Virus record (IMG/VR): IMGVR_UViG_3300042295_000068
Coordinates: 1 to 28,230 of that record
Length of the DNA: 28,230 nucleotides
Strand: one strand, 5' to 3'
From: a virus
Part shown: positions 17,499-28,230 of the stretch, in pieces
Layout of the letters: each line of letters starts with the position of its first letter
Position numbering within the stretch: the stretch's first letter is position 1
Made by a program: the position numbers and the translations under genes
The notes under the pieces: model-generated
Seen by the model: the letters and a program-made list of their open reading frames with translations, nothing else
The model's database searches: none
What the model was told of the DNA's origin: nothing

Positions 17499-18614
17499 AT
17501 GCAAAGTTTCATATCATTTCTTTCCGAAGCAGCAATTCTTCACATTGAGCATCCATCCGATAGATTATTCGATGGTCCACAAGCAGCAAAACATGCACTA
17601 AGAACTCTGAAGCAAGTTTCTTCGAGTAAAGCACCAAGCATGACTCGTAAGATTGATGACAAAATGTCATTCAATGTTATTCGAAGAGCAGACGGTAAAG
17701 TCGGTGTTAAGTATAAGGGAACAGGTTCTTCCTACAATTTCTCCCAAGATGATATTGAAAAGCAGCATGGTCACAAACCATACCTCGCTAAACCTCTGGG
17801 ATTACTATTACAACATCTTCCTAAAGTTATTCCGCATACTCCAGGCGAGTATCAGGGCGGATACATGTCAGATCGAGAATCTAGAGAGCATGAGAACGGC
17901 GTCATCTCTCACACACCAAACACAATTAAATATGACACAGACGCTGATAGTCCTGAGGGTAAAGCACTTGCCAAATCTAAAGTAAGTGCTGTAATTCATA
18001 GCAAACTAACTTCCTCTGGTGCCAAACCGCTGGCAAGTCTAGCAGGATTTAACAATCATCCTGATGTTCATCTTGTTCAGCACCTTGTTTCTAATGACGA
18101 AAACAAAATCCCGAAAGAATATAAGTCTAAAGCAGATGAACATCTGAAAAAGGCAGAACAAATGATGGCATCGCATAGTCATGATCATCATGTTGGACAC
18201 GAGCAAACTCTTAGACAGTATATCAATTCGACTCTTACTTCTAACGAGACACCCTCGGCACAGGGGTATAAAGGTTATCTTGCCAAGTGGCATCAGAAAA
18301 AGATTGATGCTGTCAAGACGGAAAAGACAAAAACTGCTAAGAAAAAGATAATGGATGACATGATTGATCATGTCTCTAAGAACCAAAAACAATTCTATAA
18401 TACATTTGAAATCCACCACCACCTACAACAAGCAACTAACCACCTTGCTAGAGGAATCGATTCTTCTGGAGCAGGTGGTTTCCGCACATCAATTGGTGGT
18501 GCTGCATCAGGTGGTGAAGGATATGTCCACAATGGTCTGAAGATTGTTGACCGCGAAGGATTCTCCGCTGCGAATCGTGCACGTAGTGAAATCTTAAGAG
18601 CGAGCAGAGGATAA
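17499..18614 (+). CDS. DUF6267-like protein with capsid-targeting-like N-terminus
   Basis: A 371-residue basic protein. The blocks ISHTPNTIKYDTD and NGLKIVDREGFSAANRAR, plus the opening FLSEAAILHIEHPSDRLFDG, match the layout of DUF6267 proteins from marine T4-like phages. The central 130 residues are Lys/His-rich and probably helical. The N-terminus MQSFISFLSEAA resembles the T4 capsid-targeting sequence (MKTYQEFIAEA as recalled) and holds LSE before Ala, a gp21 prohead-protease-type site; this suggests packaging inside the head. In relatives a KWDG motif stands where this protein has KIDD (from Lys51); resemblance to ligase-type nucleotidyltransferases is speculative. A late box precedes it, and its stop overlaps the next gene by ATGA-type spacing. 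Confidence 0.65.
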   Translation: MQSFISFLSEAAILHIEHPSDRLFDGPQAAKHALRTLKQVSSSKAPSMTRKIDDKMSFNVIRRADGKVGVKYKGTGSSYNFSQDDIEKQHGHKPYLAKPLGLLLQHLPKVIPHTPGEYQGGYMSDRESREHENGVISHTPNTIKYDTDADSPEGKALAKSKVSAVIHSKLTSSGAKPLASLAGFNNHPDVHLVQHLVSNDENKIPKEYKSKADEHLKKAEQMMASHSHDHHVGHEQTLRQYINSTLTSNETPSAQGYKGYLAKWHQKKIDAVKTEKTKTAKKKIMDDMIDHVSKNQKQFYNTFEIHHHLQQATNHLARGIDSSGAGGFRTSIGGAASGGEGYVHNGLKIVDREGFSAANRARSEILRASRG

Positions 18615-19225
18615 TGAGCGAAACTCATCACTTGACAATAGGTAGATTTGCACCTGTTCATGCTGGTCATGCGCTGATGATCAATCATGTTCTTAATGCT
18701 GCAAGGCAAGACAATGCACACCATACAATCCTTACTACTGCAACGCATGATGGCAATAAGAATCCGCTGACTCCAGATCTTAAAGTCAAGCATCTTAAGA
18801 GAGCATTTCCTGCTGCGAATGTCGAAGCATTGGGTAAGGGTGCACCAACTCTGCTTCATCACTTGTCTAAGTTACACAGTCAAGGTGTCAAGAATCTAGT
18901 TGTTCATGCTGGATCTGATAGAGCACATGAATATCACACATTAATACACAAGTATAATAATGTCGAAGGTCGCCATGGTCATTTCAATTTTGATTCGATC
19001 AAAGTCAAGACAGTTGGTGGAACCAGAACTGATGCTGATGAAGGTGTCGCTGGTGCATCTGCTACTAAGATGCGCAAGGCGGCATCTTCTGGTGATGAGA
19101 AAACATTTCATTCAATGGCACCAAGTTCTATGTCAACTGCACATAAACGTGAGATGTATAAAGATGTTCGACGTGGTCTTGGAATCCAAGAGTCATTTTC
19201 ATTCAAACAGTTTCTAGGAATTTAA
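18614..19225 (+). CDS. HxGH nucleotidyltransferase-like protein (cytidylyltransferase superfamily)
   Basis: A 203-residue protein with the adenylyl/cytidylyltransferase signature: GRFAPVHAGHALMINHV carries HxGH as HAGH (residues 17-20), and GASATKMRKA (from 147) matches the second phosphate-binding motif. Such enzymes transfer a nucleotide to a phosphorylated substrate such as NMN or a sugar/choline phosphate; the phage substrate is unknown. It is very His/Lys-rich. The C-terminus, IQE followed by SFSFKQFLGI, looks like a capsid-targeting segment placed at the wrong end, with an IxE protease-type site before it. It starts in the stop codon of the DUF6267-like gene, so the two are co-expressed and may act together in the virion. 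Confidence 0.75.
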   Translation: MSETHHLTIGRFAPVHAGHALMINHVLNAARQDNAHHTILTTATHDGNKNPLTPDLKVKHLKRAFPAANVEALGKGAPTLLHHLSKLHSQGVKNLVVHAGSDRAHEYHTLIHKYNNVEGRHGHFNFDSIKVKTVGGTRTDADEGVAGASATKMRKAASSGDEKTFHSMAPSSMSTAHKREMYKDVRRGLGIQESFSFKQFLGI

Positions 19226-19226
19226 G

Positions 19227-20048
19227 ATGGCACAGATTAGAGCGAATGACGAATTCTATGAGACCCACGGTCTTGTAACATCCGATGGTGAACTCGTAAC
19301 AACTGCTAATCCTCTACCTGTCACACAAGCAGGTGGTGCTGCCGTCTCTGAGAATAGCACATTCGGATTGAACATTGCTCGTGGTCTAGTGTCAGGTATG
19401 TCTGGTATTTTTAAGACAGGTGTCAATTCTGCATTTTCTAATGGAGTCGAGGAAAGTTTCTGGTCACACTCTGTAATTTATCCTTGGTCTGGGTGGGGTG
19501 CAGGTGGAACACTAAGTTGTTACAGTTCTTCTGCCAGTGACACTGGTTCTCTTATAATCAGTGGTCTAAATTCCACCACATGGGCGACACAGACAGAAAC
19601 AATTACGTTAAATGGAACAACTCCTGTTGTGACATCTGGTTCATTTATCCGTATCAATTCTGTAAGATATAATAGTAGTTCTACTAGCAACGCAGGTGAG
19701 ATTCACCTCGAAAGAAATGGTTCAACAGTCGGACATATCGCTGCTGGCGACGGTATCGGGCAAGGTGCACAATACACTGTTCCTGCTGGATACACTGCAT
19801 ATATGATGCAGGGAACTGCTAATATTGGTAAGGGTCAGGACGGAACAGGGTATTTCAAGTATAGATTATATGGTGGATCGTTCAATCGTGCCATGACATT
19901 CTTGCTTTATCAATCAACTTTTGATTATACGTTCGCTGTTCCTCTGCAACTGCCAGAGAAAACAGACTTAGATGTTACGATGATTGCCGCGAACGCTGGT
20001 ACTGCGGCGTCTTGTGAATATAGTATTCTATTGATAGCAAATTCATAA
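19227..20048 (+). CDS. Putative virion fibre or decoration protein
   Basis: A 273-residue protein of beta-rich, Ser/Gly/Thr-rich composition. It opens AQIRANDEFYETHGLVTSDGELVTTANPLPV, a form I associate with conserved virion proteins of marine T4-like phages, and its C-terminal half (from about residue 120) reads as a jelly-roll-like series of strands (GSFIRINSVRYNSS, YTAYMMQGTANIGKGQDG, FDYTFAVPLQLPEKTDLDVTMIAA). No enzymatic motif, signal peptide or coiled coil is seen. It begins 1 nt after the preceding stop and lies between the head-type genes and the lysis cassette. A structural or receptor-contact role is inferred from composition and location. Confidence 0.6.
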   Translation: MAQIRANDEFYETHGLVTSDGELVTTANPLPVTQAGGAAVSENSTFGLNIARGLVSGMSGIFKTGVNSAFSNGVEESFWSHSVIYPWSGWGAGGTLSCYSSSASDTGSLIISGLNSTTWATQTETITLNGTTPVVTSGSFIRINSVRYNSSSTSNAGEIHLERNGSTVGHIAAGDGIGQGAQYTVPAGYTAYMMQGTANIGKGQDGTGYFKYRLYGGSFNRAMTFLLYQSTFDYTFAVPLQLPEKTDLDVTMIAANAGTAASCEYSILLIANS

Positions 20049-20049
20049 G

Positions 20050-20057
20050 AATAAATA
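20050..20057 (+). promoter_or_regulatory. Possible late promoter box
   Basis: AATAAATA, a one-base variant of the T4 late box of the kind described for cyanophages (NATAAATA), lies 23 nt before the i-spanin ATG. The lysis genes are expected to be late. Confidence 0.45.
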
Positions 20058-20080
20058 TAGGATAATTGAGGGAAATTGAT

Positions 20081-20593
20081 ATGCTCAGAATGATTCCATT
20101 GCCATATAAGTTGCTCGCTATTGCTGCAGCATTTATTGGTGTCTTTGTTTATGGTTACATGAAGGGATCCGCTTATGCTGAGGTGGAACTGCAAAGATTT
20201 GCTGCTAAGAATGCAACATTAACTGCAGATATGGAAAAGAAAAATTCAGAGATCTCCACTGAAGTGGTGACTCAATATGTTGACCGTGTAAATACAATTA
20301 GGGAAAAAGAATATGTCTACCGCGATGCCGCTAAAACTGTTGTGCCTAGTCAGTCTGTGCTTTCTAATGGGTGGGTGTTCACGCACGACATTAGTGCCAC
20401 AGGCAGTGATGCCGACGCCACCAGAAGTGCTGATGCGTCCTCCTCAGGGTTTAAAGACACTGATGCCCTCTTCACCATCGTCGGAAACTACGCAACCTGT
20501 CAAGCAAACTCCGAGCAATTGATTGCTCTTCAGAAATGGATTGCGGATAACAAGACAGCGATCGACGAACTAAACAAGAAAGCGAAAAAATAA
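20081..20593 (+). CDS. Rz-like inner-membrane spanin
   Basis: A 170-residue i-spanin. ATG 20081 is chosen because GAGGG lies 8 nt upstream; TTG 20066 is inside the leader. One N-terminal membrane anchor (LLAIAAAFIGVFVYGYMKG) is followed by a periplasmic helical region (about residues 25-80) suited to coiled coil, and the end GNYATCQANSEQLIALQKWI is typical of phage Rz proteins. With its outer-membrane partner it fuses the two membranes at lysis. The partner is encoded entirely inside this gene in another frame. Its stop overlaps the following ATG (TAATG). No holin or endolysin is seen in the window. Confidence 0.85.
   Translation: MLRMIPLPYKLLAIAAAFIGVFVYGYMKGSAYAEVELQRFAAKNATLTADMEKKNSEISTEVVTQYVDRVNTIREKEYVYRDAAKTVVPSQSVLSNGWVFTHDISATGSDADATRSADASSSGFKDTDALFTIVGNYATCQANSEQLIALQKWIADNKTAIDELNKKAKK
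20313..20522 (+). CDS. Rz1-like outer-membrane lipoprotein spanin, nested in Rz
   Basis: A 69-residue protein in the +1 frame wholly inside the Rz-like gene. It has a lipoprotein signal: MPLKLLCLVSLCFLMGGCS, with LMGGC as the lipobox (Cys22), followed by a short mature chain rich in proline (VPQAVMPTPPEV and further PxxP), exactly the Rz1 design. AGGGA sits 8 nt before ATG 20313; the in-frame ATG 20325 is an alternative start. After lipidation it would sit in the inner leaflet of the outer membrane and bind the Rz C-terminus. The nested arrangement matches lambda Rz/Rz1. Confidence 0.85.
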   Translation: MSTAMPLKLLCLVSLCFLMGGCSRTTLVPQAVMPTPPEVLMRPPQGLKTLMPSSPSSETTQPVKQTPSN

Positions 20594-22776
20594 TGGCAGA
20601 AAAAAAGTATATCGGGAAACCTGGAAAACAAGACGATCCTTGCTGGAAGGGATACGAAATGGTAGGCATGAAGAAGAAGGGTGGACGCAAGGTTCCTAAC
20701 TGTGTGCCTGAAGCAACCGATATTATTGCCAAAGCAAAGGCAGTAGTTGCAGAAAAAGCAGATTCTAAGGAGTATCCTAGAAAGGGATTCCCAGAAGAGG
20801 GTGACTATGGTTATCATCCAAATCCTGGTCTGAAACCACAAGAGAGTGACAAAGACGAAGATATGGATGTTGCATATAAAAAAGCAACTGAGAAAGAAGG
20901 TCGCAAACCATTGAATGCCAAGGTGCTAGAGATCGAAGAAGCATTGACTCGTGTTACTTCAGGTAACAAGGGTTATGGTTACCATGGTACTGTCGAAGCA
21001 CGCGACGATGCTGAGAAAGATAAGAGATATTCCGCCATGCACCGTTATGCTAAGAAACTGGTGGGTGATGCTGGACATCTTCAAGATGCGAAGAAACCAA
21101 ACGTAATGGTGAAGCATTTCCTAGACTCTCCCCATGGTCGCCATATCGCTGATAATCCAACTGACAAAAACATCACCAGCAGATTCTCTGAATTCAAAAA
21201 GAAATATAAACCAGAGATGCACGAAGAAGTTGAACTTGAAGAAGCATACGGTATGTGGAAGGTAGACTTCCCTAAGCAACACGCTGGTAAAGCAGTCGCT
21301 GCTGGTTCTGTTCACGTTAAGGCACAGAACACTGCTCATGCTCACAAGGTTGCTGCTAAGAGAGTCGGTGTTGATCATAAGATGTTCAAGTCAAAGGTTA
21401 CTAAGTCTTCCGTGCTTCCAGAAGAAGTTGAGCAGGTTGACGAATACAATAACTATCGCAAAGCAGGCAAAGATCCATTCGCTGCAAGAAAGCAGTATAT
21501 AGCAATGGATAGAGCAGAGAAAAAGGGTGTGATGCCTGGATCTTCAACCTCAACTGCAGATGCAATTGCTGCGTTCAAAGCAAAGGGTGGAAAACCTAAG
21601 AAGTTTGATACTAAGGGTAATGTCAAAGAAGAACTCGGTAAGAGCAATGAATGGGGTCGCCCAGAACTACGCAAGAAGTATGCTGCTATGACTCCTGGAC
21701 AAGAATCAATGGCAGCAGACAAGATCCCAACTTTCGATCCACGTTACGATGATGTAACAACACAGTATTGCGGTGGTATCAAGGAAGGTTATCTTGCTGA
21801 GATCTCTGCCAAGGGTGCTGAAGCACGTGCTAAATTCCAAGCAAAGGTTAGACAAACACTAGCAGATCCAAAGAATATTGCAAGAGCAAAGAAAACTCTT
21901 GCTAAGAAAAAAGAAGCAGAAAAGGCAAAGGAAGCACCGCACCTTGTAATGCAACTGCGTAAAGCAGTAAGCATTGGATCCAAGGTCCACTTCCAAGATG
22001 GTCAGCATCATACGATTGCTCCCAATCATGCTGACATTTTCATGTCGAAGTATAACTCTGCCAAGACTTCTATTGAAAAAGAAGCACTACAGAAGCGTGC
22101 TCATAAATCTCACTCAGAATTTATGAAGACTATTGCTGAAGAAGCGCATGAGAATTGCGGGACACCTGATTGCTGCCAGATGTGCGACACTGCTGAAATG
22201 GGAACACACCACGTTGATTCCTATGAAGCGCACAAGGGTTCAGGTGATCAGATCTCACCAGTAATTTCGCATGATGATGAAGACATTCGCTTTCAAGATT
22301 TCGACGAAGAAGCATTTGAAAAAGAACTAGAAGCAGATGTTCTTGCTCTCTCATGGGATGACTTAGTAGATCTCTATGACGAAGATGAAATTGAATATGA
22401 TGAGACACCTGAAAAAGAAGATGAGGGTGAAGATCTAGAGGAAGGTATTACACCTTCTGGTCGCCTCAAGAAAAAATTCAATGCGATGCGCACTAAGAGT
22501 CGTCGAATGATGGCAAGAAATATTGCAATCAAGCGTGTGTCTTCACCAGAAAAACTTAAATCGAGATCAGTTCGTGCTGCTCGTCGTATGGTTTACAAGA
22601 GACTACTGCGCAATAGAGATATTTCTTCAGTATCTTCTGCTGAAAAGACACGCCTCGAAGCACAGATAAAGCGTATGGCACCAATGGTTGCTCGCCTATC
22701 TGTCAGAGTCATGCCAGCAGTTCGTAAACTGGAGCAATCCAGAATTAAGAACAGCAGAACAAGAAAGAAAAAGTAA
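20593..22776 (+). CDS. Large modular Lys/Glu-rich protein, probable head-internal protein
   Basis: 727 residues, no enzyme recognised. Modules in order: a Cys-containing start (DPCWKGYEMVGMKKKGGRK, about 15-40); a region rich in charged residues; a segment from 117 to 217 with YGYHGTVEARDDAEKDKRYS; a module AYGMWKVDFPKQHAGKA through KMFKSKVTK (218-271) seen in other marine phage proteins; a PEEVEQVDE link (276-284) also used in the protein at 23535; a Lys/Ala helical stretch; a Cys cluster CGTPDCCQMC (about 522-531); a long acidic stretch (560-617); and a very basic C-terminal domain (620-727). Sites IEE116-Ala, LEE217-Ala and LEE617-Gly fit the gp21 protease consensus and fall at module borders. 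It starts in the Rz stop codon and is followed by a DUF6321-like gene. Confidence 0.6.
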   Translation: MAEKKYIGKPGKQDDPCWKGYEMVGMKKKGGRKVPNCVPEATDIIAKAKAVVAEKADSKEYPRKGFPEEGDYGYHPNPGLKPQESDKDEDMDVAYKKATEKEGRKPLNAKVLEIEEALTRVTSGNKGYGYHGTVEARDDAEKDKRYSAMHRYAKKLVGDAGHLQDAKKPNVMVKHFLDSPHGRHIADNPTDKNITSRFSEFKKKYKPEMHEEVELEEAYGMWKVDFPKQHAGKAVAAGSVHVKAQNTAHAHKVAAKRVGVDHKMFKSKVTKSSVLPEEVEQVDEYNNYRKAGKDPFAARKQYIAMDRAEKKGVMPGSSTSTADAIAAFKAKGGKPKKFDTKGNVKEELGKSNEWGRPELRKKYAAMTPGQESMAADKIPTFDPRYDDVTTQYCGGIKEGYLAEISAKGAEARAKFQAKVRQTLADPKNIARAKKTLAKKKEAEKAKEAPHLVMQLRKAVSIGSKVHFQDGQHHTIAPNHADIFMSKYNSAKTSIEKEALQKRAHKSHSEFMKTIAEEAHENCGTPDCCQMCDTAEMGTHHVDSYEAHKGSGDQISPVISHDDEDIRFQDFDEEAFEKELEADVLALSWDDLVDLYDEDEIEYDETPEKEDEGEDLEEGITPSGRLKKKFNAMRTKSRRMMARNIAIKRVSSPEKLKSRSVRAARRMVYKRLLRNRDISSVSSAEKTRLEAQIKRMAPMVARLSVRVMPAVRKLEQSRIKNSRTRKKK

Positions 22777-23063
22777 TGCTATCTTTCAAACAATTTATTA
22801 CTGAAGCAGCAGTTGACGGTAAGGGTCATAAGAGTTCTACTGGTGGTCTGACGCAGAAGGGTCGCGACCATTACAACAACAAATATGGCAGCAATCTGCA
22901 GGCACCAGTTACTACTCCTCCATCAAAACTGAAGGCAGGTAGTAAGGCAGCAGGTCGTCGTAAGTCTTTCTGTGCTAGAATGTCTGGCGTTGATGGACCA
23001 ATGAAAGATGAAAAGGGTCGTCCGACTCGCAAGGCACTAGCACTAAGAAAATGGAATTGTTAA
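22776..23063 (+). CDS. DUF6321-like small basic protein with capsid-targeting-like N-terminus
   Basis: A 95-residue basic protein. The C-terminal half, GRRKSFCARMSGVDGPMKD to ALALRKWNC, matches the DUF6321-type motif found in many phage proteins, with two conserved cysteines. The N-terminus MLSFKQFITEAAVDG is the best match in the window to the T4 capsid-targeting sequence and contains ITE before Ala, a gp21-type cleavage point that would release an 85-residue DNA-binding-like product. ATG overlaps the preceding stop (TAATG). An internal head protein ejected or packed with DNA is inferred; no direct evidence of function. Confidence 0.7.
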   Translation: MLSFKQFITEAAVDGKGHKSSTGGLTQKGRDHYNNKYGSNLQAPVTTPPSKLKAGSKAAGRRKSFCARMSGVDGPMKDEKGRPTRKALALRKWNC

Positions 23064-23064
23064 C

Positions 23065-23502
23065 ATGGAAGAACTAAGCACATCAATGAAGATAGTACTC
23101 GCAAATACTTTTGCGATGTATCTCAAAGCACAAGGTCATCATTGGAACGTAGAGGGTAAAGACTTCTCTCAGTTGCATGACTTCTTTTCAACACTCTATG
23201 AAGAACTATTTGCTGCGATTGATAAGATTGCTGAAGAGATTCGTGCATTAGATGTGTATGCTCCATATGGTTTGGATACCTTGTCAAGTATTGCAACAAT
23301 TAAAGACTCATCAATCTATGGTAACAGTGTCCCGTCGATGCTTCAAGACTTGATTGAATCCAACGTTGCAGTAGTAGAAGCATTGAATACTGCACATAAA
23401 ATGGCAGATACAGCAGGTAACAGAGGTCTAGTAAATCTCCTCGAGGAAAGACTTGATGTTCATGCAAAGCACATGTGGATGCTTCGCGCAACCTCAAAGT
23501 AA
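23065..23502 (+). CDS. dps: Dps-like ferritin-family protein
   Basis: A 145-residue four-helix protein. KAQGHHWNVEGKDFSQLHDFF is the Dps signature; by comparison with E. coli Dps the inter-subunit ferroxidase residues are His26, His38, Asp53 and Glu57 (DKIAEEI), but the position of Asp67 is Ser42. Dps dodecamers oxidise Fe(II) with H2O2, store iron and shield DNA. The Lys-rich N-terminal DNA-binding tail of E. coli Dps is absent. It starts 1 nt after the DUF6321-like gene, within probable head genes, so it may be made late or carried in the virion. The weak ribosome site suggests translational coupling. Confidence 0.88.
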   Translation: MEELSTSMKIVLANTFAMYLKAQGHHWNVEGKDFSQLHDFFSTLYEELFAAIDKIAEEIRALDVYAPYGLDTLSSIATIKDSSIYGNSVPSMLQDLIESNVAVVEALNTAHKMADTAGNRGLVNLLEERLDVHAKHMWMLRATSK

Positions 23503-23510
23503 TATAAATA
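23503..23510 (+). promoter_or_regulatory. T4-type late promoter box
   Basis: TATAAATA starting at the stop codon of the Dps gene, 24 nt upstream of the next ATG (GAGGA ribosome site in between). It is the only obvious signal for the large repeat protein and following virion genes. Confidence 0.65.
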
Positions 23511-23534
23511 GATAAAAGATTAGAGGAACACTTA

Positions 23535-25307
23535 ATGAGACTAGAACAAGTTATCAGGTCAACCATGACTGAAGCGATGGATATGGACGGTAGACTCGAC
23601 CAGTTGGTTCGTGCTGGTCTGATGCCAACAAGTTCGCTGCCACTGTTGAAGCGTGCCATTTCTAGAATGCATGCTGGTATGTCACTTCAGGGTGCTGAAC
23701 GTGATGTAATGAACATGTTCATCAGTTCGATGATGTTCATTGTTCTCGGTGATGATACCGTATTCAATAAGGCACGTGCTGGTGCCAAGTCATATGCGAC
23801 CGAAGCAAAAGAAAAGACAGAGTATGACTACGAAGGCGACATGGCAATGGGTCAACTGAAGTCAATCATTGCTAACTCGCAACGTATGCATGACATGCTT
23901 TCTGATGACACCAATCTCCCTGAGTGGGTGCAGTCTAAGATTACTTTGGCAGAAGATTATATCTCAACCGCAAGCAACTATATGCAAGGTGAGATGAATG
24001 AAGAAAAAATGCCATTCGAAGGTCCATATAGAAAAGTCGGCGAGCGCAAAGACAAGTATGGTAACCCAGTAAAGAACGTTGCTAAGCACCTTGCTAAGAA
24101 AGCAATGAATGCTCAGAAGAATGAAGAAGTCGAGGTAATCGACGAACTCTCTAAGGCAACTATGGGTCGCTACATCAAGAAAGCGGCAACTAAGATTGGC
24201 ACCCAAGGTGTTACTGCTGGGTTGAAGATTGCTAAAGACGAAAGATCTCAGAAAAACTTTGACACTATTGGTAAGCGCGAACGAGGCATTTCAACTGCAG
24301 TTAAGAAACTTACCAAGGAAGATGTTGAGCAGGTCGATGAGATCTCAAAGGCAACACTTGGTTCTTATGTTAAGAAAGCATCTGGTGCTGAGCAACCAAA
24401 GAATGTAATGTCCCCGAAGAATGTTCCTCTGACAAAAATCGCTGCTTACCAAGGTGACAGTGAAACAGGACACTTCGGCAAAAGATTTAACCAACACACT
24501 TATGATAAAGCAGAGCGTCTTCGTAAGAACCGCGAAACAGGTATCAAAAGAGCAGTTGATAAACTGACCAAAGAAGAAGTCGAGATTACCGAAGCATCAG
24601 TGGCAGATGTAGCAAAAACCGCACATCTACATGTCAGAGCAGGTAAGCATGACAGTATCCATACTGCTATTCAATCTGCAGTTAATACGCATTTCCCATC
24701 TTCGGTGCACTCTTCAGTAACTCGCAAAAAGGTTGCTGCTCAAGCGTTGAGTAGAATTCAATCGATGAATAAATCTAAGATGACTAAGGAAGATGTTGAA
24801 CTGGATGAAGGTAATACTACTCCAGAAATCAAAAAAGCGTATGCGGATCTCATAAAGACACCATCTGGATCTTCTGAGCGCAAAACTGCGATTCGCCATT
24901 ACAAGAGTTTACGTCAGAATCTTGCCAAGGAAGAAGTCGAACAGGTCGATGAGGTTTCAAAAAGAACACTTGGTCGCTACATCAATAAAGCAAAAGACTC
25001 TATTGACATGACTTCATACAGAAGCGGTATAAAGGACGGAACAGCAATTTCTTCATCGACTCCGTATAAATCAAATAATCCGCTGGAGAAGAAGTTATCG
25101 AAGCGCCACAAGGGCATCGAAACTGCAGTCAAGAAGTTGACTAAAGAAGATATTGATGCAGTAAAGAAAATGAACGAGTCATATAAGACTGCATTTGAAT
25201 CTGCACTTAATGAATATGGCATCAAGTCTCCCTCGGAACTTGATGAATCGAAACGAAAAGAATTTTTCAATCACGTAGATCTAGAATTTAAAAAGGGAGA
25301 CAATTAA
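23535..25307 (+). CDS. Repeat-containing modular phage protein, probable head-internal
   Basis: 590 residues, no enzyme recognised. The N-terminal 90 residues are helical (VIRSTMTEAMDMDGRLDQLV onward); 95-152 is a module with EYDYEGDMAMGQLKSII and NLPEWVQSKITLAEDYIS, common in marine phage proteins. Three copies follow of a unit built as E(V/D)VExxDExSKxTxGxYIxKA ... RxxGIxxAVxKLTKE(D/E) (about 198-264, 264-350, 467-540), with a different helical insert between copies two and three. The C-terminus AFESALNEYGIKSPSELDESKRKEFFNHVD is another widespread module. ITE353-Ala and LDE425-Gly, bounding the insert, and MTE13-Ala fit the gp21 protease consensus. A late box precedes it and its stop overlaps the next ATG. 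Confidence 0.6.
   Translation: MRLEQVIRSTMTEAMDMDGRLDQLVRAGLMPTSSLPLLKRAISRMHAGMSLQGAERDVMNMFISSMMFIVLGDDTVFNKARAGAKSYATEAKEKTEYDYEGDMAMGQLKSIIANSQRMHDMLSDDTNLPEWVQSKITLAEDYISTASNYMQGEMNEEKMPFEGPYRKVGERKDKYGNPVKNVAKHLAKKAMNAQKNEEVEVIDELSKATMGRYIKKAATKIGTQGVTAGLKIAKDERSQKNFDTIGKRERGISTAVKKLTKEDVEQVDEISKATLGSYVKKASGAEQPKNVMSPKNVPLTKIAAYQGDSETGHFGKRFNQHTYDKAERLRKNRETGIKRAVDKLTKEEVEITEASVADVAKTAHLHVRAGKHDSIHTAIQSAVNTHFPSSVHSSVTRKKVAAQALSRIQSMNKSKMTKEDVELDEGNTTPEIKKAYADLIKTPSGSSERKTAIRHYKSLRQNLAKEEVEQVDEVSKRTLGRYINKAKDSIDMTSYRSGIKDGTAISSSTPYKSNNPLEKKLSKRHKGIETAVKKLTKEDIDAVKKMNESYKTAFESALNEYGIKSPSELDESKRKEFFNHVDLEFKKGDN
24126..24326 (+). repeat. Coding repeat unit 1 (SKATMGRYIKKA type)
   Basis: First of three protein-level repeats: EEVEVIDELSKATMGRYIKK to RERGISTAVKKLTKED. 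The core is a predicted helix followed, after a variable loop, by a second helix that leads straight into unit 2. Confidence 0.8.
24324..24584 (+). repeat. Coding repeat unit 2
   Basis: DVEQVDEISKATLGSYVKKA to RETGIKRAVDKLTKEE, with a longer middle loop than unit 1. Confidence 0.8.
24933..25154 (+). repeat. Coding repeat unit 3
   Basis: EVEQVDEVSKRTLGRYINKA to RHKGIETAVKKLTKED. It is separated from unit 2 by an unrelated insert of about 115 residues. Confidence 0.8.
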
Positions 25308-27698: not shown

Positions 27699-28230
27699 AT
27701 TTGTAGATGCACTAATAACATATCGAATTCTAAGGTTGTTGACTACACCTTTCGATCAACAAGATGCATTTCGTCTGGGGTTGATTGATAAGCATGGTAA
27801 TCGATTGAAGAAAGAGAATGAGATAAATACCACGGAAGAACAAGAGGCATATAGTTTGCTTCATAGAATGGTATTTAGATTAAAAAGAATCATTGAAAAG
27901 ATTCCGCTGGAAAATAAGAACTTCCTATCGTTTGCTACTGCAGTTGCTCTAGTAAGGGAACAGATAGAATATGATGATGACGTATTAGAGGAAGTATTTT
28001 ATATGACACAAGAACGCCAAGACGTTAAAGACCTCGCCGAAGAACTAGAGGCAGGAAAGATTAGTTCGTTTAAACAGTTTATGGAAGAGATGGGTGTCGC
28101 TGGGGGTGGAGTTGCTGGGATTGGTATTCCGCATCCAACCAAACCAAACCAAGCAGAACCTGGAATCACCAAAAGACAACAGAAAAAATATAAAAAGAAG
28201 AACAACTCAAGTTCTCCTGTATTGGTAAGA
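27691..28230 (+). CDS. Conserved T4-like marine phage protein (3' end outside window)
   Basis: Open for 180 codons from ATG 27691 to the right edge, so truncated by the window. It begins SRFVDALITYRILRLLTTPF, has EEQEAYSLLHRMVFRLKRII and FLSFATAVALVREQIEYDDD, all helical, and is familiar as the usual neighbour of the DUF7207-like gene in marine T4-like phages. Near the visible end comes ISSFKQFMEEMGVAGGGVAG, containing the same SFKQF string found in the proteins at 18614 and 22776, followed by a Pro/Lys-rich tail. Function unknown; its ATG lies inside the preceding gene. Confidence 0.75.
   Translation, partial: MSRFVDALITYRILRLLTTPFDQQDAFRLGLIDKHGNRLKKENEINTTEEQEAYSLLHRMVFRLKRIIEKIPLENKNFLSFATAVALVREQIEYDDDVLEEVFYMTQERQDVKDLAEELEAGKISSFKQFMEEMGVAGGGVAGIGIPHPTKPNQAEPGITKRQQKKYKKKNNSSSPVLVR

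Follow-up and report, generated by a model that had tools for sequence, protein, structure and literature searches.

The locus considered here raises the question of which of its proteins travel inside the phage head, and whether a gp21-type prohead protease cuts them there. The window, meaning the whole stretch of DNA analyzed, is a 28,230-base IMG/VR virus record (IMGVR_UViG_3300042295_000068) and a fragment of a phage genome, which we assign to the T4-like phages on the strength of a DNA polymerase sharing 48-50% identity with cyanophage gp43. An earlier note, made from the letters alone, had proposed that several of its genes, named here by their first base, form a packaged set, and that two large proteins among them are processed like polyproteins. 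The explanation that we consider probable is that genes 17499 and 22776 encode tagged head cargo, and that the modular proteins of genes 20593 and 23535 are cut at their borders by a gp21-type protease. What we observed are the sequences, their conservation, the co-occurrence of gp21 in relatives, and published virion mass spectrometry of tagged and module-type relatives; from these we infer packaging and trimming in the window's own phage, cleavage at internal borders, and ejection. Membership of the packaged set is likely for 17499 and 22776, which carry tags, but only plausible for 20593 and 23535.

Targeting tags on the DUF6267 and DUF6321 genes

The DUF6267 gene (17499..18614, +; DUF6267 E=6e-40) and the DUF6321 gene (22776..23063, +; DUF6321 E=2e-26) encode predicted head cargo. 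Their proteins open with the N-termini singled out by the earlier note, MQSFISFLSEAA and MLSFKQFITEAA, in which the tags MQSFISFLSE (17499..17528, +) and MLSFKQFITE (22776..22805, +) are each followed by AA past the predicted cut after Glu10. In T4 IPIII, targeting needs residues 4 and 7 and processing needs residues 8 and 10; L/I-x-E is the motif behind which gp21 cleaves (PMC9026906). Both tags agree with the IPIII capsid-targeting sequence (F4/F7/L8/E10) at these four residues, and a test of this register (aromatic at 4 and 7, L/I at 8, Glu at 10) picked out both genes. Two tags were seen among the 32 window proteins against 0.01 expected, and three in the close syntenic relative G001 against 0.03 expected. 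Among relatives of gene 17499 the tag is conserved and the residues following it are variable. Judged from sequence, it is highly probable that these are T4-type targeting tags; they very likely serve as both targeting and processing signals, the removal of residues 1-10 being predicted only. Under the mechanism we propose, residues 4 and 7 would steer the protein into the prohead core, a gp21-type protease would then take off residues 1-10 by cutting after Glu10, and the cargo thereby freed within the DNA-filled head would be ejected later.

A protease of this type is available in the phage group. Of 16 contigs from relatives, 12 carry the gene for gp21 (PF03420), G001 among them, as do all eight T4-like isolate genomes tested and none of five T7-like or siphovirus genomes. 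G001 has the gene order gp18-gp19-gp20-X-gp21-gp22-gp23, and its genes for the head protease, the scaffold, and the capsid protein were confirmed as such. Where the relatives' major capsid protein aligns with the processing site of T4 gp23, it reads ALFE/T, ALFE/D, SFLAE/A, LLTE/A, SLLE/A, or NLWE/A (the slash marks the cut, here and below); because these sites always hold Leu at P3 and Glu at P1, the group's protease is probably specific for L-x-E.

Published virion proteomes of relatives suggest a link between the tag and packaging. The S-CREM2 virion proteome comprises 52 proteins (PMC10665884), and five of the six tagged proteins among the 218 that the phage encodes were detected in it (Fisher p=0.003, with a pattern widened to L at 4 and F at 8 after the sequences were known). 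The five are the SAM hydrolase gp6 (MKDFDSFLEE), gp13 (MKDLHSFLTE), the kinase gp14 (MKRFDAFLTE), gp136 (MQTFSMFFSE), and the cytidylyltransferase gp154 (MKNFSSFLTE); gp175 is tagged and went undetected. With a narrow pattern (F/Y at 4 and 7, L/I/V/M at 8, E at 10), three of three were detected (chance ~0.013). The T4-register pattern was adopted after a loose one (first 22 residues, wide classes), which we rejected as not significant on S-CREM2 (p=0.09), and was chosen partly with the S-CREM2 N-termini in view. The S-CREM2 nuclease gp12, also detected in the virion, has an offset RFASFMAE/A at residues 18-26. This protein is annotated as a Cas9 nuclease; it looks like an HNH-type nuclease, and the Cas9 name is doubtful. 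In S-SCSM1 the NMNAT, a virion protein, starts MKSFLQFLKE/AA, and the S-CRM01 kinase, cited as a virion protein in PMC10665884, starts MISFDQFLSE. The tag is separate grounds for taking the S-CREM2 proteins to be packaged.

Across all loci examined, 136 distinct tagged open reading frames fell into ~30 sequence clusters, compared with 2 on average and at most 6 in a null that assigned these residue classes to random positions; the DUF6267 and DUF6321 clusters carry excess weight in this survey, since these domains were used to fetch the loci. Outside the two families, 51 tagged frames were found in 3.3 Mb of T4-like loci, and the T7-like loci (0.66 Mb) had none. Additional tagged families include a HAD/polynucleotide-kinase-like protein, cytidylyltransferases, the S-CRM01 kinase, a nucleotidyltransferase-like protein, a sigma-region-4 protein, and an ADP-ribosyltransferase. 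The last (L199:264-1046; PF03496 E=1.8e-14) starts MKSFKEFLFE on a contig with gp21 and is a possible counterpart of T4 Alt. The chance reading, that the motifs are coincidental matches in glutamate-rich proteins unrelated to gp21, can point to a raw [LI]xE count close to expectation in the two large proteins, and is very improbable overall and already contradicted for the N-termini, where the register is ~70-fold over null and tracks both T4-like genomes and virion detection.

The tags resemble those of T4 IPI, IPII, IPIII, and Alt: in both cases a ~10-residue propeptide has an aromatic residue at positions 4 and 7, L/I at 8, and Glu at 10, and the phage group concerned encodes gp21. The T4 proteins are loaded in the prohead, as is predicted for the cargo here. 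They differ in that the cargo here is unrelated (DUF6267 and DUF6321; in relatives, NMNAT, kinase, SAM hydrolase, nuclease, and ADP-ribosyltransferase-like proteins), and in that P1' is often A and also E, K, D, Q, or S, with trimming predicted. Sequences like the capsid-targeting one are already known on further basic proteins of T-even phages (PMC9026906), and in the open-licence literature (subscription papers being outside the search) we found no description of such tags in cyanophages and no mention of DUF6267 or DUF6321.

Some tag-like segments depart from this arrangement. The cytidylyltransferase of gene 18614 ends in ESFSFKQFLGI (19190..19222, +), which is tag-like without a cleavage Glu, and the virion protein gp93 of S-SCSM1 ends in RTFKEFLEYIE; on sequence grounds, these two proteins may carry the targeting tag in a C-terminal form. 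Gene 27691 has an internal SFKQFMEE (28066-28089) and then a Gly-rich stretch, and a tagged frame in locus L052 runs on as EEAPANSVGAGMQGLGSAQGQPIAGYDTIL, resembling a capsid protein directly past its processing site. Segments similar to these two occur in S-CREM2 gp160 (GFTGAAAPEGPVAGYDPLM) and in S-SCSM1 gp97. The left-edge gene (3-449) is cut off by the window; its G001 relative, HAD/polynucleotide-kinase-like (phrog_415, E=1.7e-6), starts MIGFKDYIFE, in tag register.

Module borders in the two large proteins

Genes 20593 (20593..22776, +; 727 amino acids, without an N-terminal tag) and 23535 (23535..25307, +; 590 amino acids) encode predicted head proteins, which we read as strings of small modules with acidic linkers between them ending in [LIV]-x-E. 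A gp21-type protease would most likely cut at these linkers, releasing individual modules, mainly basic ones, within the head. All motif positions given in the earlier note were verified: in the 20593 protein, IEE/A at Glu116 (20932..20943, +), LEE/A at Glu217 (21235..21246, +), and LEE/G at Glu617 (22435..22446, +), which precedes a basic C-terminal module; in the 23535 protein, ITE/A at Glu353 (24585..24596, +), LDE/G at Glu425 (24801..24812, +), and MTEA at residues 11-14 (23565..23576, +). To the five borders in that list we add four with V or I at P3: VDE/Y (QVDE/Y) at Glu284 of 20593 (21436..21447, +), and IDE/L (VIDE/L) at Glu204 (24138..24149, +), VDE/I (QVDE/I) at Glu269 (24333..24344, +), and VDE/V (QVDE/V) at Glu473 (24945..24956, +) of 23535. 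Glu617 of 20593 is invariant in 16 relatives, with [LIM]xE before the C-terminal module in all contexts, and Glu473 of 23535 is nearly invariant. The MTEA is a weak candidate: its Glu13 is invariant in 18 relatives, but it stands outside the T4 tag register. Further L/I/V-x-E matches in 20593 (at 40, 54, 277, 346, 398, 403, and 516) lie off any border that we could define. Most of the predicted fragments are basic and two are acidic.

In the predicted structures, both of low confidence overall (52.6 and 51.3), the predicted local distance difference test (pLDDT) falls below 50 at borders 207-219, 274-290, and 578-634 of 20593 and 414-428 of 23535, with neighboring modules at 70-85; around Glu353 of 23535 it is below 50 at 333-349, and a confident module follows at 350-413. 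Whole-protein searches in isolated phages returned no match for 20593 and matches to single modules only for 23535, and a fold search with the predicted 23535 structure gave nothing at E<=0.001.

Modules of both proteins also occur elsewhere, in other genes and phages, preceded by differing upstream sequences, which allows the borders to be compared. Across 94 distinct upstream contexts in 12 module families, P1 is Glu in 84% and P3 is L/I/V/M in 78%. Exactly where the module starts, the motif [LIVM]xE is found in 70 of the 94 contexts, as against 0-6 when the register is shifted by one to four residues; because the offset of the module anchor was set per family with the motif in view, this is a test of conservation and not a blind one. 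At P1' the borders have mainly Ala or Gly, and Leu for the DELSK repeat. The protease motif lies exactly at borders and is kept when modules move, as a polyprotein should have it, with composition a partial confounder.

Module-type relatives are found in virions. S-CREM2 gp137 and S-SCSM1 gp29, which end in DUF6321, S-CREM2 gp160, with the border EETEISE/GKKDACY, and S-SCSM1 gp92, with the border KEEVELDE/R, are virion proteins without an N-terminal tag that have modules in common with the window proteins, without whole-length orthology. Since 20593 is untagged and the MTEA of 23535 is off register, packaging of both is suggested by way of these shared modules and the mass spectrometry of relatives. 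EF-hand-like loops (DANKNGKIDGHDF, DVDNDGKKNTKSD) occur in some modules, in G001 (50551-50934), S-SCSM1 gp92, and Melnitz-3 gp21; their sequence suggests putative calcium-binding head modules.

The DUF6321 module connects the tags with the borders. In T4-like phages it is preceded either by an N-terminal tag or by a polyprotein border; whichever of the two it is, the upstream part closes with one shared motif at a fixed place, mostly 12-14 residues ahead of the GG anchor. In T7-like podoviruses the domain is placed between the scaffold and capsid genes, and the tag in front of it is absent. Upstream [LIVMF]xE occurs in 35 of 37 distinct T4-like sequences versus 3 of 66 T7-like ones. Almost all contrasts on the domain tree go the expected way and none goes the opposite way; they are few, so the Fisher value overstates the evidence and the association is not statistically independent. 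We therefore set that test aside as evidence, the effect being large yet nearly one phylogenetic event. Three large contigs (107-140 kb) with an untagged DUF6321 have neither gp21 nor gp23.

Alternative readings of the borders

Several points weigh against tagged cargo and cleaved modules. The gp21 homologue (an S77-type protease) whose presence elsewhere in the genome the earlier note proposed to check is encoded by the syntenic relatives but absent from the 28 kb window, itself a fragment. Neither 20593 nor 23535 has an N-terminus that fits the T4 register. The widened S-CREM2 pattern was fitted after the fact, the S-SCSM1 virion list holds only one of two tagged proteins (gp30 is tagged and unlisted), and the S-CREM2 authors allowed that such proteins could be contaminants (PMC10665884). 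The DUF6321 tree holds two well-supported independent T4/T7 contrasts, or five with weak branches, and the motif is poorly kept in two module families, YDYEGDM (33%) and NQQYV (25%).

The likeliest alternative, to which we give about one chance in three, accepts the tags as genuine and takes the [LIV]xE borders as uncut acidic linkers, recombination seams between modules that are shuffled between genes and phages. The borders are indeed acidic, and the bare [LI]xE motif shows no enrichment across the two large proteins (14 versus 10.8 expected after shuffling, p=0.18), although [LI]xE[AGS] is (7 versus 2.5, p=0.005). The same motif count in upstream genes was 15 versus 9.8 expected (p=0.07). 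By the earlier note's own standard, a motif frequency in these proteins no higher than in the replication proteins would refute the idea; the density is higher (5.3 versus 2.8 per 1000 residues in upstream genes) but only by a modest margin, and raw counting was dropped as a main test for being too weak. At motif-blind alignment breakpoints, [LIVM]xE lies near 45-55% versus 22% expected (2.1-2.5-fold), and EE is enriched equally (2.6-2.75-fold) in linkers that are acidic overall; this analysis therefore cannot separate cleavage from acidic linkers, and we rejected it as proof of cleavage. What uncut linkers explain poorly is that P1 Glu and P3 Leu/Ile/Val stay constant across unrelated contexts while P2 and P4-P8 vary, that the motif adjoins the module and shifted registers fail, and that a tag or a border, both ending in [LI]xE, can precede the DUF6321 module, with the motif absent in phages lacking gp21. 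On this balance, and from sequence, we slightly favor border cleavage of the modular proteins.

It is unlikely that the modular proteins are instead core or scaffold proteins whose gp21 fragments mostly leave the prohead. T4 gp22 and gp67, which like the modular proteins have several gp21-type motifs per protein, are processed into several pieces, most of which exit (PMC9026906), and the G001 protein encoded between gp20 and gp21 (50551) has the same KKEEVEQTDE/A linker, whose T at P3 also departs from the border motif. That protein is assigned as gp68-like by gene position only, no family having matched. The motifs here stand at the borders of shuffled modules that are mostly basic, in contrast to an acidic scaffold, and module-bearing relatives stay in mature virions. 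Phages phiKZ and SPN3US (gp175/gp245 prohead protease) offer a further parallel to cleaved modules, with large head-internal proteins whose propeptides are cut after a short Glu-containing motif; those proteins lose N-terminal propeptides, and border-by-border swappable modules are undescribed for them in the literature examined.

Neighboring genes and implications

Other genes lie between those discussed. The cytidylyltransferase/NMNAT-like gene (18614..19225, +; phrog_3041 E=1e-43) lacks an N-terminal tag, and relatives of its protein were detected by mass spectrometry in cyanophage virions (PMC10665884, PMC9602691). A spanin-like protein gene starts at 20066. The tagged DUF6321 gene and the modular gene 23535 flank an untagged Dps/ferritin-like gene (23065-23502; PF00210 E=1.7e-25).

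Tags, border motifs, and virion proteomes together suggest a swappable cargo-loading system. Whether in marine T4-like phages generally one tag loads unrelated cargo, alongside polyproteins of swappable modules cut at gp21 sites in the prohead, we regard as nearly an even call. The tag offers a reason for the recurrence of NMNAT-like enzymes, kinases, and a SAM hydrolase in cyanophage virion proteomes, whose authors could not tell such enzymes from contamination, and mass-spectrometry data that already exist make the polyprotein idea testable. As a candidate address label, the tag might further serve to put foreign proteins into heads, a use already made of the T4 tag. It would give a sequence rule for predicting head-packed phage proteins co-delivered with DNA in a highly abundant group of ocean viruses, in which, if the polyprotein reading is true, a single gene would deliver several small proteins together with the DNA.

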